Below, in pieces: positions 51,535 through 59,968 of a stretch of 64,000 nt of DNA. Position 1 is the stretch's first letter; every line of letters begins with the position of its first letter. Below the pieces are notes generated by a model. It saw nothing but the letters and a program-made list of their open reading frames with translations. It was not told the DNA's origin and searched no databases. This stretch comes from Candidatus Poseidoniales archaeon. Its GTDB lineage: Archaea; Thermoplasmatota; Poseidoniia; Poseidoniales; Thalassarchaeaceae. The translations under genes were made by a program, and so were the position numbers. The stretch spans positions 1-64,000 of the forward strand of contig JAPOFX010000004.1 of NCBI GenBank assembly GCA_028283505.1. The letters run 5' to 3'.

Positions 51535-54500
51535 ATGAAGAACAACAAGATGATTGCAATGATGCTTACCATGAGCATGCTGGCGGCAGCTTTCGCCGGA
51601 TGCCTTGGTGGGGACGACGAAGATGACACACCCGACTGGTCCATTTCGATGGCCAGTGACGTTAGTGTCGACTTCGTGGAGTCCGCTTGGGACCCCATAA
51701 TCCCCAACCTGAATGCCGGCGATATGTGCGACGCCATCATATCGGCGATGACGAAGACTGACGAGCGAGAGCAAGCTGTCGACTTCACCAGGGCCTACTA
51801 CACAAGTAGCCAGGGTGTGATCGGCGGATCTGGCGCCGCTTCCATCAGTAATGTCGCAGACCTGAACGCAGAGGGCACCACAATTGGTGTACAGTCCGGG
51901 ACCACCTCGGATTTGTATGCCCAGGATAACCTAGGTGCAGCTACGATCAGTGCGTATGACGACTTCCCTTCGGTAATTGCCGCTTTGAACAACGGCGACG
52001 TACACTACGCAATGGGCGACGCGCCTGTTCTGTCGCTAGAGGGAACCCTGATGGTTACCTTCTCCGATGAGAACTTCGGTATAGCTGTCCAAGGAGATTC
52101 CTCTGGGGAGCTATTGGGCGCGCTCAACATGGCTATTGGAGCAATGGTCGACTCTGGTGAATACGACCTGATTTATGGAGCTCACTTCGATGGAGCTGTA
52201 ACTCTAGCCGATGACACCACAATGGATACTGCCACTTCCTACCCAGTACCATCTGAGGGAAGCGACCTTACAGCAGTTCTTGAGTCTGGAAGCCTGAGGC
52301 TTTGCACAGACCCGTTCTACCCTCCATTCGAGAGTTACGATGAGTCTGGTGTTGTTGTAGGCTTTGACGCTGACATAGCTCACGCCGTGGCAGACGAAAT
52401 CGCAGCCCACTACATGGGAACAGAGAACCCAATGTTCGTTGCCCCAGAAGACCCAGCTGTCACAATAAAGCTAGGTTTCCTGAATGATGCAACGGGGCCA
52501 ATCGCTCAGTTCGCGGCACCGTTCACCTTCGCATGGGGAGCCGCAATGGATGACCTAAACGCAATGGGAGACAACTATGTCTTCGAGATTATTGAGGCAG
52601 ACTCGGGATGTGACGGTACAATGGCTGGTACAGCAGCCCAGTCCCTAGTGGATGCTGGTGTTGTAGCAGTAGCCGGTGCAGCATGCTCCGGTGCCTCAAT
52701 AGGTGCTAACGCTATTCTTTCAGCAGCAGGAATCCCAATGATCTCATACGCTAGCACATCTCCAGCCCTCAGCGACGCAACCGCCTACCCTCACTTCTAC
52801 AGGATTGTACCAAGCGACGCACTACAGGGCCAAGCAGCAGCTGACATGATTGCAGCAAGCGGCGTTTCAAACACCGCTGTCGTTCACATGACAAACAGCT
52901 ACGGAGCAGGTCTAGCTGACTCTGTCGCACTCAATCTAGGTGAGGACGCTGTTTGCTTACAGGCAGGATACGAGGAGACAACAACCGACTTCCAGGGCGC
53001 TGTTCAGGCGGTAATGGATGCAGGATGCGACTCAGTCTTCCTCGGCTCTTATGCCTCTGATGGTGCAATGATCGTCGAGACCATGGCAGCCATGGGCGCT
53101 ACCATACCAATTTTCAGCGCTGATGGAATGGCTGGCTCGGCAGCACTTGAGGAATACACCTACCCAGCTGTAGCAAACGGAATCGAGGTCACAAGGCCAA
53201 GAGCCGCTGCAGCAGGTGCAGGTGTTTTCGCAGCAGCTTGTGCAGCTGACTCAGTCTGCCAGACTGGAATCTTCACCTCCGAAGCATACGACGCAGTAAT
53301 GATGATCGGTCACGCAGCAATGATGGAGGACGGAGCTAACATGGGCATGCATGTGCCAATGGTAGGTGTTGATTACGCTGGAGACAGCGGCACTCACACG
53401 TTCCTAGACAACGGTGACGTTGGAGGATCCGGATATGATGTTTGTACCTTCCACCACGTCCCAACATTTGGAGAGTACTTCAACTGTGATAGGATGTGGG
53501 AAGCTGGAGGCGACGGAGTCGTTGACGCACCTTGGACCGGAGCTACAATCAAGATCGGATTCTTGAATGACGCTACTGGCCCAATTGCAGTTTACGCAGA
53601 CGGATTCGTGGCTGCTTCGCAGATCACGCTAGGTCTCGCCAACACACTGGCATACAGTCAGGGAGTTCAGTTCGAGATAGTCTACGCAGACTCAGGTTGT
53701 GATGGTACGATGGCTGCATCCGCAGCTCAGACCCTTGTTGATGCAGGCGTTTGGGGAGTAGTCGGAGCAGCTTGCTCCGGAGCTTCCATGGCAGCCAACG
53801 CGGTACTTTCCGCCGCTGGAATCCCGCAGGTGTCCTACGCAAGCACGAGCCCAGCGCTCTCCGATGCAACAGCGTACCCATCCTTCTACCGTGTCGTTCC
53901 AAGCGATGCGTTCCAGGGTTCGGTTGTGGCTGAAGTTATGACAGCAGACATGCAGGACAATGTCGCAGTTATCCACATGACGAACGCATACGGATCTGGA
54001 CTCGCTGACGCATTCGTCGGTAGCATGGACGCAGCCAACATTTGCACACAGATCGGATACGAGGAGACAGCTACTGACTTCACTTCCATTGTGAGCACAG
54101 TGGTTAGCGAGGGATGTACCTCAGCCATGCTCGTGTCCTATGCAGCAGATGGAGCAGCTCTGATTGAGGAGATGGCACTGCAAGGATTCACAGGCGCTAT
54201 CTACGGTGCAGACGGAATTGCAGAGGAAGGACTAGCAGCCGACATGGCCGACAAGTCCCTAGTGGACGGCGTTATCGCCACAAAGCCATCAGCTGGTGGC
54301 GCAATGTCGACAGTGGGCATGGTCTTCGCTGCACAGTGTGCTGCTAACCCTGCTTGCGCCGGCGGCATCTACACCGCTGAGGCATTCGATGCTGTTTACA
54401 TCACAGCATTCGCTGCCTTCACGGCTCTAGCAACCCCAGGTATTACCAAGGATATGGCAATAATGGGGACCGGCAATGGTCTGGAAGGGGCTAGCGGAGC

Positions 54501-54633
54501 AATCACATTCTTGTCGAATGGTGATGTTCCTGCAGCCGGCTTCTGCGTCGGTGAGTTCTCTCACGATGCAACCACTGACACAGTCTCATACGACTGTGCT
54601 AGAAACTGGGACCCAGTCAACGGAATCGTTTGA
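51535..54633 (+). CDS. Multidomain ABC-transporter substrate-binding lipoprotein (permuted SBP3 + two LivJ-type domains)
   Basis: The product is 1032 aa with a lipobox signal (MMLTMSMLAAAFAGCLGG, Cys about residue 22). Residues about 34-221 match a type 3 solute-binding domain (SBP_bac_3) from its second strand to its C-terminus: WDPIIPNLNAGD, ISAMTKTDEREQAVDFT, GTTIGVQSGTTSD, YAMGDAPVLS. The missing first strand and helix appear afterwards, at about residues 248-290 (SGSLRLCTDPFYPPFESY, GFDADIAHAVADEIA), so the domain looks circularly permuted. Two tandem periplasmic-binding type 1 (LivJ-like) domains follow, about 309-660 and 671-1032, both with GFLNDATGPIA and ACSGAS.. ISYASTSPALSDATAYP motifs. 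They are highly similar in protein but not in codon use. It feeds the Liv-type permease and ATPases downstream. Confidence 0.88.
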   Translation: MKNNKMIAMMLTMSMLAAAFAGCLGGDDEDDTPDWSISMASDVSVDFVESAWDPIIPNLNAGDMCDAIISAMTKTDEREQAVDFTRAYYTSSQGVIGGSGAASISNVADLNAEGTTIGVQSGTTSDLYAQDNLGAATISAYDDFPSVIAALNNGDVHYAMGDAPVLSLEGTLMVTFSDENFGIAVQGDSSGELLGALNMAIGAMVDSGEYDLIYGAHFDGAVTLADDTTMDTATSYPVPSEGSDLTAVLESGSLRLCTDPFYPPFESYDESGVVVGFDADIAHAVADEIAAHYMGTENPMFVAPEDPAVTIKLGFLNDATGPIAQFAAPFTFAWGAAMDDLNAMGDNYVFEIIEADSGCDGTMAGTAAQSLVDAGVVAVAGAACSGASIGANAILSAAGIPMISYASTSPALSDATAYPHFYRIVPSDALQGQAAADMIAASGVSNTAVVHMTNSYGAGLADSVALNLGEDAVCLQAGYEETTTDFQGAVQAVMDAGCDSVFLGSYASDGAMIVETMAAMGATIPIFSADGMAGSAALEEYTYPAVANGIEVTRPRAAAAGAGVFAAACAADSVCQTGIFTSEAYDAVMMIGHAAMMEDGANMGMHVPMVGVDYAGDSGTHTFLDNGDVGGSGYDVCTFHHVPTFGEYFNCDRMWEAGGDGVVDAPWTGATIKIGFLNDATGPIAVYADGFVAASQITLGLANTLAYSQGVQFEIVYADSGCDGTMAASAAQTLVDAGVWGVVGAACSGASMAANAVLSAAGIPQVSYASTSPALSDATAYPSFYRVVPSDAFQGSVVAEVMTADMQDNVAVIHMTNAYGSGLADAFVGSMDAANICTQIGYEETATDFTSIVSTVVSEGCTSAMLVSYAADGAALIEEMALQGFTGAIYGADGIAEEGLAADMADKSLVDGVIATKPSAGGAMSTVGMVFAAQCAANPACAGGIYTAEAFDAVYITAFAAFTALATPGITKDMAIMGTGNGLEGASGAITFLSNGDVPAAGFCVGEFSHDATTDTVSYDCARNWDPVNGIV

Positions 54634-54718: not shown

Positions 54719-57700
54719 ATGCTGCATGAAGCTCGTGAAAAGTTCTCAAGCCTTCCAAGAGGGATACAGAGAACAATTTTCGCCATACTTCTATTCATCG
54801 ACTCAAACCTTCTAGGTACATCAAACAGGTTAGGTGTTCTGAATCTCCTAGATATCCTCGTTGGAGGTGGCCTTCCAGATGACTTAGTTTGGCTCCTACA
54901 GATTGTTGAGTCGATTACTGCTGGCTTCATACTTGTGAAAGTGCTATTCGACGATGTTCCAAGCAGCAAGGTCAGAACCGTAGGATTGATACTGTCCCCT
55001 GTCTTCATGATCATTGTCACATTTGTTACATTGGACATCCTACTTCGGGGGCTGGATACTGGAGCTTCCTTCACTCTTGATACGGTTTCAATAATCACTG
55101 GAACATTGACGTGGTCATCTACATACCTGGCCATAGCCATCGGGCTGACACTGACCTACAAGGTACAGAGGTATGGAAACTTCGCCCAATCTGAATTATT
55201 CATGATTGGAATGTACCTCTCAATGATAATGATATGGACTGACCATTTCTTTCCTATGTCGAGTTTAAGCACTACGAAGGACGGAGTTCTTACTTGGTCC
55301 GTACTTATATTCACGCTAGTTTTGGCGTTCATACTTACTGGTCTAGCTGGTATTATAATCGATAGGCTGGTATACAGAGGATTCCGAAAGAACAAAGCTA
55401 CCCCACAAGTAATGATGATTGCATCACTGGGTGTTGCTCTTATTCTACGAGCTCTAACCTACCTGAGATTCGGATCATCGAGAAATATGTTTGAGCCCGA
55501 GGGAGATTGGAGAATGCCTAGCTTGAGATGGGAGATACCAACAACCAAACTCAGACTCAATCTGGGCGATAGGACTTTGGAGGATGGAAGAACGTACACT
55601 TCATGGACATGCGAGGAAACCGGCATAGACGAATCCGGAGAGCCCATCCTGTCTAGAATCGTAAATGAGGCATCCAAACCAGCTTACGAGCTATACGACA
55701 CCACAGCAGACTGCGTTACCCAAGCTACCACCAATTACGCATACTACAAGGGAGCAGTTCCCTTCGTCATATTCTCTGCCGTGTTTATTCTGTTGCTTCT
55801 TCTCAACAAGACAAGACTTGGCAGAAGAATGAGAGCTGTTGCAGACAACCCCGAACTCGCGGCTAGTAGTGGCATCAACGTTGAGAGAGTCCACCTGTCC
55901 AGCGCATTCCTTTCGGCCGGAATCTCAGGAATGGGTGGCGCCATTTTCGCCATGACTCTCAGGTTCAGTCCTGAAACCGCATTTACACTATTACTTCCCT
56001 CCTTCGCTATAATCGTGCTTGGGACAATCGGTTCTATACCAGGCGCCATCGTTGGATCAATCATAGTTGGATTCGTAAGGGCATTGTCCTCACCAGTACT
56101 AATAGGAGTAGGGTTGCCGCTGGGCAGGTCAAATTACTCCGCTTTAGACGGGGTAATGCCCTACATCTTCCTCGTTGCCATTCTAATGATCATGCCAGAG
56201 GGAATCGGAGATGCCTATGAGAAGTGGAAAATTGACAGGCTCAGAAAAAAGAGGGAAGCATCCGTCAGGGATGACAAAATCGCGACCGGACTGGCTTTCC
56301 TCCCCACTGGAATTTTTGGTCTCCATCACTGGTGGAGAGGCAGGCCTCACAAAGCACAAGCTTTCACCGCGATAGCAGTTGCCTCCTATGTTTATCACAG
56401 GTTTAGCGACTTCGTGGGCAGGAACTCCTTCGCAGACGGGGCATGTTCGGACGCGTGTCTGAACAATGAGTTTGCTGAATCCAACCTCTATCTACTGACA
56501 GGAAGGAATGACGGGGAGATACTCCTGTCCGACTCCCCCCTAACTCAAGAGCATCTTTTGGAACAGACCAGGGCCCCCAGCGACCTAACTCCTTTCGAAG
56601 CCGAGCAGTGGATTCCGGGAGCTGTGTCAGATATGCAGGAATCATGGCTAAGTCAGATGAAAATGGAAGTTGACATTGTAAACTTCATAGTTGACACTGG
56701 AGATTTGATTTGGCCATTGGCAATAGCCTGTCTCTGGGGATATTCGATTTATGAGGGGATTAAGATGGCCTCCGGGAATGAGGAAAAGAACTCACAATCA
56801 AGCCTTTCTCTGGCCCTGAAGGCGGGTTTACAAGCTGTCTGTGTCCCATTCGAATCTATTGGTCAGAGATGGTCTAAACTTGACAGATATCACGAGACAA
56901 TGGTGCGATCCCAGAAACATAAGTTACAGAATTTACTATCGAGATATGGAAACAAACTCAACATATCGAATCGAATGAGCGAACTGCTGGGCTGGCTGAT
57001 GGACAAACTGAAAGTACCTAAAAACAGCAAAAAAGATTTGCAACTGTACGGCAGACAAAGCCATCTTGGTTCAAATATGCTATTCTACGGCCTCCTACTG
57101 GTCCTAATTTTATTCCTCGCGTGGCTTCCCATTGCAGAATCAGACACATTTGCATTCAAGAAAACACTCCAGGTATCAAATGTCCTCCTCACACTTTCAA
57201 TATTCATTCTGATGTCCTTCTCACTAAACCTACACACTGGATATACTGGGATGGTAAATTTTGGAGTTATCTTCTTTGTCGCTGTAGGTGCGATAACTGT
57301 GTCCATTCTAACGGCACCGGAGAGAGTACATGGATATGATTGGGGCATTCTGGAAGCTACACTTGTTGGGATGGCATTAGCCGCTGTTTTTGGCTGGCTA
57401 CTCGCCTATCCAACTGCGCGTCTCAGAACAGACTACTTCGCCATAGTTACAATTTCGCTTGGGGAGATTGTCAGGGTCCTACTGGCGGGAGAGCCACTTT
57501 TGAGAGCAGGACCTGTCGCTTCGGCAATAGGAATCTCTGGATATCCACTTCCGATGGAGGATTGGTGGTTCTGTGGCTCTGAGAAATCTGGACCAGACAC
57601 TCAGTGGGCCAGTCCGGATGCATGTAGGGACGATCTATTACTAGATAGTACCCCTGCTTATCAGATCGGAGAGATACTCAACCTTGGCGAACCAGCGCCA

Positions 57701-58459
57701 TACTTGCTGATGCTGATGATTATTTCTGTGCTTTCTGTGGCTGTAGTGTGGCTCATTCTTTCCAGACTTCTGGCCTCCCCGTGGGGAAGGATCCTAAAGG
57801 CAATAAGGGAAGATGAGGACGTGGCTCAACACCATGGTCATGACATTCTGACCTACAAGGCTGCCAGTCTAGCTCTGGGTGCAGCAATTGCCGCGTTAGC
57901 AGGTGCTCTATGGGCATGGAAGCTGACAGGATTCGATGCCAGCTTCATGTCTCCCGCAAGGTCAACATTCCTTGTTTGGGCCGCATTCATCATTGGTGGA
58001 ACCTCAAATAACAGGGGCATGGTAATCGGTGCATTCATTATCGTCCTAATGGAATTTGTATTCAACGTGCTCGTGGCGGCTCAGGGATCATCAGATCTAC
58101 CTCTGCACACTACAGCGGACCGAATAGACACTCTATTCGAATGGATATTGACAAATCAGTGGGACGTATTCACAATATTCCTGACTTTGGCACTATTTGG
58201 GATGGTAACCAGATCATCCAGGCTTCTCGATATCGGAGCATCGGGAGCATCAATCTTCTTCTTTGCAACAATACTGCTAGACCAACGCTCTATCGACGAG
58301 TCATTCTTCGGCGGGGTGATTAATGCAGATATGGTATACATCAAACTGATGTTGATTGGTTGTCTGATGCTGTTCTCTCTCAAGTTCAACTCCAAGGGAC
58401 TCCTCCCCGAAGTACCATCGAGGCCGACTCGACCATTAGGAGGTCAACCCCATGAGTAA
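54719..58459 (+). CDS. Fused LivH-LivM branched-chain amino acid-type ABC permease (1246 aa)
   Basis: One polypeptide holds both permease halves. Residues about 125-500 are LivH-like (TYKVQRYGNFAQSELFMIG, TRLGRRMRAVADNPELAASS, FAIIVLGTIGSIPGAIVGSI), with an extra external loop at about residues 255-345. A TM2-like hydrophobic hairpin and linker follow at about residues 515-760 (FLPTGIFGLHHWWRGRPHKA). Residues about 800-1230 are LivM-like (SFSLNLHTGYTGMVNFGVIF, YFAIVTISLGEIVRVLL, ASPWGRILKAIREDEDVAQ, FIIGGTSNNRGMVIG). Fusing the two fixes a 1:1 ratio. Its stop overlaps livG by 8 bp. The substrate could be a branched-chain amino acid, another amino acid, or urea-like compound; it is not determinable. 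Confidence 0.88.
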   Translation: MLHEAREKFSSLPRGIQRTIFAILLFIDSNLLGTSNRLGVLNLLDILVGGGLPDDLVWLLQIVESITAGFILVKVLFDDVPSSKVRTVGLILSPVFMIIVTFVTLDILLRGLDTGASFTLDTVSIITGTLTWSSTYLAIAIGLTLTYKVQRYGNFAQSELFMIGMYLSMIMIWTDHFFPMSSLSTTKDGVLTWSVLIFTLVLAFILTGLAGIIIDRLVYRGFRKNKATPQVMMIASLGVALILRALTYLRFGSSRNMFEPEGDWRMPSLRWEIPTTKLRLNLGDRTLEDGRTYTSWTCEETGIDESGEPILSRIVNEASKPAYELYDTTADCVTQATTNYAYYKGAVPFVIFSAVFILLLLLNKTRLGRRMRAVADNPELAASSGINVERVHLSSAFLSAGISGMGGAIFAMTLRFSPETAFTLLLPSFAIIVLGTIGSIPGAIVGSIIVGFVRALSSPVLIGVGLPLGRSNYSALDGVMPYIFLVAILMIMPEGIGDAYEKWKIDRLRKKREASVRDDKIATGLAFLPTGIFGLHHWWRGRPHKAQAFTAIAVASYVYHRFSDFVGRNSFADGACSDACLNNEFAESNLYLLTGRNDGEILLSDSPLTQEHLLEQTRAPSDLTPFEAEQWIPGAVSDMQESWLSQMKMEVDIVNFIVDTGDLIWPLAIACLWGYSIYEGIKMASGNEEKNSQSSLSLALKAGLQAVCVPFESIGQRWSKLDRYHETMVRSQKHKLQNLLSRYGNKLNISNRMSELLGWLMDKLKVPKNSKKDLQLYGRQSHLGSNMLFYGLLLVLILFLAWLPIAESDTFAFKKTLQVSNVLLTLSIFILMSFSLNLHTGYTGMVNFGVIFFVAVGAITVSILTAPERVHGYDWGILEATLVGMALAAVFGWLLAYPTARLRTDYFAIVTISLGEIVRVLLAGEPLLRAGPVASAIGISGYPLPMEDWWFCGSEKSGPDTQWASPDACRDDLLLDSTPAYQIGEILNLGEPAPYLLMLMIISVLSVAVVWLILSRLLASPWGRILKAIREDEDVAQHHGHDILTYKAASLALGAAIAALAGALWAWKLTGFDASFMSPARSTFLVWAAFIIGGTSNNRGMVIGAFIIVLMEFVFNVLVAAQGSSDLPLHTTADRIDTLFEWILTNQWDVFTIFLTLALFGMVTRSSRLLDIGASGASIFFFATILLDQRSIDESFFGGVINADMVYIKLMLIGCLMLFSLKFNSKGLLPEVPSRPTRPLGGQPHE

Positions 58460-59246
58460 ATCAGTCTTGAAGGTGAACAGCCTTCGGAAGGAGTTCGGTG
58501 GGCTTGTAGCCGTTAAAGACGTTTCATTCGAGGTTGGGGAAGGAGAGTTTGTGGGCCTAATTGGCCCTAATGGTTGCGGTAAATCCACAACTTTCAATTG
58601 CATTAGCGGATTACTACAGCAGACTTCAGGAAAAATAGAGATGTTCGGGGAGGATATCTCAAACCTTAGGCCAGATCAAATACAGAATAAAGGCATGACT
58701 AGGACTTTCCAGCATACAAACCTGTGGAGAGAGATGACTGTAATAGAGAATCTTATGGTCCCACCAAGGAATCAATTCGGGTCATCCCCCTTCGAATTCA
58801 TAAAATCCCTTTTCACTACGAAAAATGAGTCTGAGAAAGAAAGATTACTCATGGCCTATGAGGCATTGGACCAACTAGAAGTCCCACACATGGCCCACAA
58901 TCTTGCTAGTGAGCTATCTGGTGGGCAGTCAAAGCTCGTCGATATAGGGAGATCGATGATGGGAAGTCCAAAGCTTCTACTTCTTGACGAGCCTGTTGCT
59001 GGCGTAGCTGGACCTTTGGCAATGAAGATATTCAATAACCTTAGAAGGATAGTTGACGAAACAGGAATTTCAATCCTGATCATTGAACATAACATGGATT
59101 TCATTCTACGACAAGGAGTCGACAGAATAGTCGTCATGAACGAGGGCGAGGTTCTAATGCAAGGAACTCCCGATGAGGTTAGGGCGAATAAGGATGTTAT
59201 CGAGGCGTATCTTGGGACTGCGGCAACTCCACCGGAGAGTGAGTAA
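58452..59246 (+). CDS. livG: ABC transporter ATPase LivG-type
   Basis: Cytoplasmic ATPase (264 aa) of a Liv-type importer. Walker A is LIGPNGCGKSTTFN (about residues 36-49), the signature LSGGQSKLVDIGRSM, Walker B LLLLDEPVAGVAG, and the switch His in ILIIEHNMDFIL. The C-terminal extension (VRANKDVIEAYLGTAA) is typical of LivG. Its start overlaps the permease 3' end and it is followed 2 bp later by livF. It energises the fused permease together with LivF. Confidence 0.95.
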   Translation: MSKSVLKVNSLRKEFGGLVAVKDVSFEVGEGEFVGLIGPNGCGKSTTFNCISGLLQQTSGKIEMFGEDISNLRPDQIQNKGMTRTFQHTNLWREMTVIENLMVPPRNQFGSSPFEFIKSLFTTKNESEKERLLMAYEALDQLEVPHMAHNLASELSGGQSKLVDIGRSMMGSPKLLLLDEPVAGVAGPLAMKIFNNLRRIVDETGISILIIEHNMDFILRQGVDRIVVMNEGEVLMQGTPDEVRANKDVIEAYLGTAATPPESE

Positions 59247-59248
59247 AT

Positions 59249-59968
59249 ATGAGTAGAGTATTGGATATCAAAGGTCTGGAGGGGGGCTACGGTTCGGTAC
59301 AGATTCTGTATGGAATCGATATGTACGTAGATGAGGGAGAGTTCGTCACAATAATCGGGCCAAATGGGTGTGGAAAATCAACCCTGATTAAGACAATTTT
59401 CGGGATCGCCACATACTATTCTGGAGAGGTATCATACAGAGGGAATGATGTTTCTGGATGGAGGACAGATCAGCTTGTCAATCAGGGCATAGCATATGTT
59501 CCACAGGTAGACAACGTATTCCCTTCTCTCTCAGTATTGGAGAACCTCCAGATGGGTGGTAACAGCCTCCCAAGCATTACTCTAGCGGAGAGGATAGAGA
59601 GTGCATTGGGCATGTTTCCTGATCTCAAAGACAGGGTCCACGACCTAGCCGCCTCGCTCTCGGGAGGAGAAAGACAGATGCTAGCAATTTCAAGGGCATT
59701 GATATCAGACCCCAAATTCTTACTTTTGGATGAGCCCACAGCGGCCCTATCTCCGTTGTACCAACAGCAGATTATCGAAAGGATAGATTCTCTTAGGGAT
59801 CAAGGGATTACAGTTCTAATAGTCGAGCAGAATGCTCGGCTATCCCTAGCCAGATCGGACAGGGGGTACATCGTATCCAATGGAAAGATTGTACACACCG
59901 GAGATGCGGACAAAATACTATCTGACCCCGAGATAGGCGAATACTTCCTAGGCTCAACTGGACACTAG
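59249..59968 (+). CDS. livF: ABC transporter ATPase LivF-type
   Basis: Second ATPase (239 aa) of the importer. Walker A is IIGPNGCGKSTLIKTIFG (about residues 32-49), the Q-loop region IAYVPQVDNVFPSLSV, the signature LSGGERQMLAISRAL, Walker B FLLLDEPTAALSP, and His-to-Gln at the switch position (VLIVEQNARLSL), as in LivF proteins. It ends by overlapping the convergent alpha/beta hydrolase gene by 15 bp. Confidence 0.95.
   Translation: MSRVLDIKGLEGGYGSVQILYGIDMYVDEGEFVTIIGPNGCGKSTLIKTIFGIATYYSGEVSYRGNDVSGWRTDQLVNQGIAYVPQVDNVFPSLSVLENLQMGGNSLPSITLAERIESALGMFPDLKDRVHDLAASLSGGERQMLAISRALISDPKFLLLDEPTAALSPLYQQQIIERIDSLRDQGITVLIVEQNARLSLARSDRGYIVSNGKIVHTGDADKILSDPEIGEYFLGSTGH

Follow-up and report, generated by a model that had tools for sequence, protein, structure and literature searches.

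The window, that is, the whole stretch of 64,000 nucleotides of Candidatus Poseidoniales DNA that was analysed, encodes a receptor lipoprotein in which the first strand and helix of a family-3 solute-binding (SBP3) domain stand after its last helix, raising the question of whether this domain is a functional, naturally rearranged binding domain or a damaged one. The features of the locus were as follows:

51535..54633, plus strand: receptor lipoprotein, 1032 aa (ORF), with lipobox, acidic tether, circularly permuted SBP3 domain, and two ANF/Peripla_BP_6 domains
51535..51603, plus strand: signal peptide and lipobox (..LAAAFAGC, Cys23), read directly and kept in relatives
51652..52185, plus strand: first part of the SBP3 domain (PF00497 profile 37–130, DSSP, and residue mapping to E. 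coli ArgT)
52186..52263, plus strand: linker that bridges the former C- and N-termini (..TLADDTTMDTATSYPVPSEGSD..), from the junction alignment of permuted types A, B, and C
52264..52416, plus strand: late segment of the SBP3 domain (PF00497 profile 1–37, E=3.8e-7; pLDDT 95–98)
52465..53529, plus strand: first ANF/LivJ-like domain (nearest solved sequences, Leu/Ile/Val-binding protein 1z15, E=6e-20)
53530..54630, plus strand: second ANF/LivJ-like domain (Pfam Peripla_BP_6, 671–921)
54719..58459, plus strand: permease, with LivH and LivM as a single fusion polypeptide of 1246 aa (BPD_transp_2, two stretches)
58452..59246, plus strand: LivG-type ABC ATPase (ORF whose ABC ATPase motifs were read directly)
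59249..59968, plus strand: LivF-type ABC ATPase (ORF whose ABC ATPase motifs were read directly)

In the Pfam search, the 1032-aa receptor matched ANF_receptor (E=1.1e-60), Peripla_BP_6 (E=1.4e-47), and SBP_bac_3 (E=2.4e-23). The completeness of the SBP3 domain, its permuted order, its conservation, its intact ligand set, its confident predicted fold, and its place in one permuted clade (together with two canonical-order proteins, L031 and L153) are shown below. The domain is likely a functional, naturally permuted family-3 solute-binding domain with the ordinary two-lobed amino-acid-trap fold; its function is inferred, and there are no ligand data.

Residues 40–294 of the receptor hold the whole of an SBP_bac_3 (PF00497) domain, but its order is circularly permuted: it runs from beta2 to the C-terminal helix, then through a linker of approximately 26 residues, and then into beta1-alpha1. 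The first part comprises beta2 (residues ~44–49), the remainder of lobe 1, lobe 2, and the C-terminal helices, and the late segment comprises an N-terminal helix, beta1 (residues 253–258), a YPPFE loop, and alpha1 (residues 277–294). The PF00497 profile was matched in two stretches whose order was reversed along the protein, with profile positions 37–130 at residues 42–218 (nt 51658–52188, E=3.3e-16) and positions 1–37 at nt 52294–52404. The domain departs from the canonical SBP_bac_3 order, which opens with beta1 and closes with the C-terminal helix; here, beta1-alpha1 come after the C-terminal helix. The sequence was rotated to canonical order by placing residues 236–294 ahead of residue 40. 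The rotated sequence gave a single PF00497 stretch over profile 1–130 at 95.1 bits, compared with 88.1 bits for the native domain, which itself passed the gathering cut-off of 26.4 bits. In the PDB alignments, the native order matched canonical proteins only from approximately residue 50, whereas the rotated sequence matched them from near their start (for 5t0w, the aligned range changed from 62–244 to 14–244) and spanned solved amino-acid-binding proteins end to end. No piece of the SBP3 domain is absent from the receptor.

The earlier note, made from sequence alone, had claimed a permuted type 3 solute-binding domain in a three-domain receptor lipoprotein, and this claim held on the reversed Pfam order, the rotation, and the relatives. 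The missing strand 1/helix 1 of about 40 residues, said to reappear late, was confirmed as beta1-alpha1, and the proposed spacing of about 25 residues between the normal C-terminus and the late segment was about right. The proposed domain entry near WDPIIPN held only in part; the native start lies slightly earlier, just before beta2 (residue ~44). The ionotropic glutamate receptor ligand-binding domain (PF10613) was rejected as an identity at 22.9 bits against a gathering cut-off of 30, and it was also excluded by the lack of a transmembrane pore inside the SBP3 domain. The tail after alpha1 (GTENPMFVAPEDP) resembles a second beta2, as an overlap relic might, but shuffles gave a median p of about 0.3, and the relic was dropped as unsupported.

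An AlphaFold2 model of residues 27–310 was computed from an alignment of 78 homologous rows, some of them homologous slices, and had a mean pLDDT of 91.6 and a pTM of 0.87; an earlier, shallower model from 14 close relatives reached a pLDDT of only 66.5. The late segment (model residues 218–270) had a pLDDT of approximately 95–98, and DSSP assigned strands to both beta2 (model 18–23) and beta1 (227–232). This confidence in the late segment and the strand state of beta1 favour permutation. In type II SBPs, beta2 is an edge strand and its neighbour is beta1; therefore, the predicted strands imply that beta2 pairs with the late segment. This beta1-beta2 pairing is a prediction of the model, inferred from DSSP and topology and not measured on coordinates. 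Foldseek, which aligns in sequence order only, superposed approximately 175 residues on canonical amino-acid SBPs (prob 1.00; rmsd of 1.5–2 Å for the best), which is what a permuted fold should give, as only part of it follows the canonical sequence order. The pTM and the Foldseek matches identify the predicted fold as a type II two-lobed one; the best listed structure and sequence matches were all type II amino-acid SBPs, and the type I (cluster B) sugar-binding fold was not supported.

Permuted domains cut like that of the window, between alpha1 and beta2, are referred to as type A. E. coli ArgT (locus L279) was aligned to type A sequences as the ligand-site reference; the alpha-amino-acid ligand positions of LAO are ArgT D11, Y14, S69, S72, R77, T121, and D161. 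ArgT D11, Y14, F52, S69, S72, R77, T121, and D161 mapped to D259, Y262, W52, S70, T73, R78, T124, and D162 of the receptor, and all eight positions were invariant in 26/26 type A sequences spanning genera, so that the earlier claim of intact ligand motifs held. W52, S70, T73, R78, T124, and D162 lie in the first part and D259 and Y262 in the late segment; therefore, both SBP3 pieces build one ligand site. It is likely that the SBP3 domain binds amino acids, with both binding and delivery inferred from sequence and model in the absence of ligand data. Under the opposite explanation, the SBP3 part no longer binds ligand and is a degenerating spacer that separates the lipid from the ANF domains. 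In its favour, the type B relatives from MGIIb described below show that permuted SBP3s can lose ligand residues, and LIV receptors without an SBP3 domain occur in relatives. However, the invariant ligand set across genera, which includes both late-segment residues, the short branches, and the conservation of the whole domain make this explanation highly improbable.

The permuted order was the same in approximately 65 Thalassarchaeaceae (MGIIb) loci with 57–97% identity, which came from independent assemblies, single-cell genomes among them, and had a single open frame in nearly all cases; it is therefore the result of neither chance nor misassembly. A strict pattern yielded 54 non-identical complete type A domains. 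Type A was present in 6 of the 11 sampled genera of family f1, and the phylum search added one member in g5. An artefact of assembly or annotation could be suspected, or a deletion that happened recently in a single genome, as the assemblies are drafts and one relative (L149) has its signal peptide and domain in different frames, but the recurrence of this order across the independent loci leaves almost no room for it. The relatives shared the permuted order and contained no full extra SBP3 copy, which favours permutation. The alternative raised by the earlier note, tandem SBP3 domains each truncated, is not a true rival, since duplication and truncation is the usual route to circular permutation. 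Tandem SBP3s exist in relatives, with canonical units in L182 and permuted units in L159; no duplication intermediate was found next to the receptor gene. L182 (G151:C68) is a single Asgard protein of 652 aa in which a full canonical SBP3 is duplicated.

The receptor is of the LIV type, as its LivJ-like ANF domain is encoded beside LivH, LivM, LivG, and LivF. livHM followed the type A receptor in 49 of 64 loci, and the other 15 were short stretches, most of them at contig ends. The LivH-LivM fusion is likely the cognate permease of the receptor; the extra stretch between its halves resembles a TM2-type motif (GIFGLHHWWRGRPHKAQAF). In G034 and the MGIIa genome G044, the same LIV operon encodes a lipobox-ANF receptor without an SBP3 domain; therefore, the SBP3 domain was most likely inserted between the tether and the ANF domain. 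MGIIb livK is reported to be highly transcribed (PMC9723583), and we infer that this livK encodes the receptor of the window. The system resembles LivJ/LivK with LivHMGF importers in its LivJ-like ANF domains and its livHM-livG-livF operon, and differs in the added N-terminal permuted SBP3, the duplicated ANF domain, and the fused LivH-LivM. Like the tandem SBDs of GlnPQ (6h30), it serves one importer with multiple amino-acid traps that share an anchor; however, GlnPQ has two canonical SBP3s fused to the permease, whereas the window has one permuted SBP3 and two ANF domains on a separate lipoprotein.

Beyond what the earlier note had proposed, Asgards and other archaea share the permutation, with cut points that differ. 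Type B is cut at the lobe boundary and consists of a signal peptide, lobe 2, linker, lobe 1, and a C-terminal TM. It was found in Asgard archaea, Heimdallarchaeota and Kariarchaeota included (L159, L163, L164, and L180, with two type B units in tandem in L159), and in family f3 of the window's class (L232–L235 and L273), which we take to be, in all likelihood, Marine Group III. Type C, cut before the C-terminal helix, was found in one genome of the Asgard phylum set (L181 in G099). The permease and ATPase of G099 resemble the f3 versions more than other Asgard ones, and a transfer or a mis-binned contig is therefore possible. In the junction alignment, the linker DD..T..YP.P..G..L..IL was recognisable in all three types. 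MGIIb type B relatives lack nearly all ligand residues, and amino-acid binding is thus not expected of every permuted member. No type B was found in the genome of the window (G000, 89% complete), and the bacterial plasmids searched gave half-matches to canonical SBP3s only and no permuted SBP3.

In Asgards, f3, and MGIIb, the neighbour of types B and C is a HisM permease whose N-terminus carries a YCF48-like propeller, and a HisP ATPase is also alongside in most stretches examined. The tandem L159 is an exception, with the propeller-permease and HisP on a different contig. The propeller-permease of L235 matched PSII_BNR (E=4.1e-18) and BPD_transp_1 (E=2.1e-18) in Pfam, and a scan of Asgards with the propeller domain only returned, besides the expected loci, mostly weak, partial matches. 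Examples of this permease are L235:897–2735 (minus strand), L240, L241, L243, and L089. The MGIIb type B proteins (~333 aa with a C-terminal TM; L083, L084, L037, L089, L028, L073, L237, and L239) keep the propeller-permease neighbour, and several adjoin a purC-like gene.

Trees were built from rotated sequences with the linker columns removed; the canonical rows were few and were gathered with queries from the permuted family, which limits the test. All permuted forms, MGIIb type B included, were separated together with L031 and L153 from canonical Asgard SBP3s by a branch with support of 100/96, and when the long-branched MGIIb type B rows were left out, the permuted forms and L031/L153 were again together against Asgard and bacterial SBP3s (99/99). 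L031 and L153, which are canonical-order MGIIb proteins, grouped with type A (100/99 in the tree with the bacterial outgroup). The AU test rejected a clade of permuted forms without them (p-AU 0.0002 and 0.002). It did not reject a clade made up of type A only (p-AU 0.17–0.21), which allows L031/L153 to be sisters of type A. Before beta1, both carry YP.P.EGSSL or FP.P.EGSSL, the right half of the shared linker, whereas in the canonical Asgard proteins examined the signal peptide runs almost straight into beta1 without this half. L031 (G035:C19) and L153 are large, apparently secreted proteins with LDL-receptor-A-like repeats (CDNGEEIPASWVNDGEADCYDGSDE).

The canonical order of L031/L153 is likely a reversal from the permuted state, although independent permutations remain possible. 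According to the latter explanation, types A, B, and C arose separately from canonical SBP3s, and L031/L153 are unpermuted survivors. This is supported by the fact that L031/L153 are canonical yet nearest type A, with sisterhood to all type A not rejected, and by the existence of a tandem canonical SBP3 (L182). It is opposed by the linker common to the three types, by the single clade separated from canonical Asgard and bacterial SBP3s in both trees, and by the linker half in L031/L153. On balance, we consider independent origins the weaker explanation, by a modest margin. In the history that we favour, the domain was closed once, its termini moved, and L031/L153 went back to canonical order in a single event. 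A bolder reading, which may equally well prove right or wrong, is that the ends were closed once by the linker and the termini then moved at least three times in archaea, the L031/L153 return included, with the lobe boundary, the alpha1/beta2 loop, and the C-terminal helix as the three positions.

In the favoured history, the ends would have been joined once in an archaeal ancestor. The protein concerned would have bound substrate for a HisM/HisP-type amino-acid importer with a YCF48-like propeller on its permease, and the ancestral form would have been type B, cut at the lobe boundary. That type B came first rests on distribution and operon context, as the branching inside the permuted clade is unresolved. 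Later duplication and truncation may have shifted the cut to between alpha1 and beta2, and the resulting type A unit, its ends close together, would have entered a LIV receptor in Thalassarchaeaceae, where it came to separate the lipid tether from the ANF domain. In the present domain, the conserved linker joins the old C-terminus to the old N-terminus, and the late beta1-alpha1 is predicted to complete lobe 1 beside beta2 and to supply two ligand residues. The receptor would most likely hold three ligand traps on a single lipid anchor and so raise the local concentration of amino acids at LivHM-LivGF, with the assignment of traps to permease undetermined.

The domain resembles SBP family 3 (PF00497; HisJ, ArgT/LAO, GlnH, TmArgBP, and the GlnPQ SBDs) in sequence family, predicted fold, ligand residues, and completeness, and differs in its permuted order, its new termini between alpha1 and beta2, and its conserved linker across the old termini. 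No natural permuted SBP family 3 protein was found in the literature searched, most subscription journals being outside the search. The only natural permuted ABC binding protein found documented there was MglB-2 (Tp0684) of T. pallidum, a circularly permuted type I binding protein ('Type Ic') that binds glucose (PMC4990184). Both are natural permutations of a lipid-anchored ABC binding protein, and MglB-2 keeps binding; however, MglB-2 is bacterial with a type I (cluster B) sugar fold, whereas the window family is archaeal with a type II SBP3 fold and at least three cut points. Circular permutation is routine in protein engineering. In this conserved family, which is cut at several points and encoded next to intact importers, the change of termini can be tested with real relatives. 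The family amounts to a natural experiment in rearranging a protein, with a linker of natural origin and cut points chosen by natural selection.

Some minor observations were also made. A short module, GC.D..A.NYN..A..DDGSC, flanks the permuted SBP3, on its N-side or its C-side depending on the genome (L020, L021, L018, and L019). Elsewhere in the genome of the window, an SBP3 of 404 aa (L077:612–1823, on G000:C20) was suspected of being permuted and was rejected, as its order reads canonical and AapJ-like. One type A receptor (L270:3819–7709, in G516) has no lipobox; in its stead, the protein has a zinc-ribbon-like N-terminal segment, one probable TM, and calcium-repeat-like segments.
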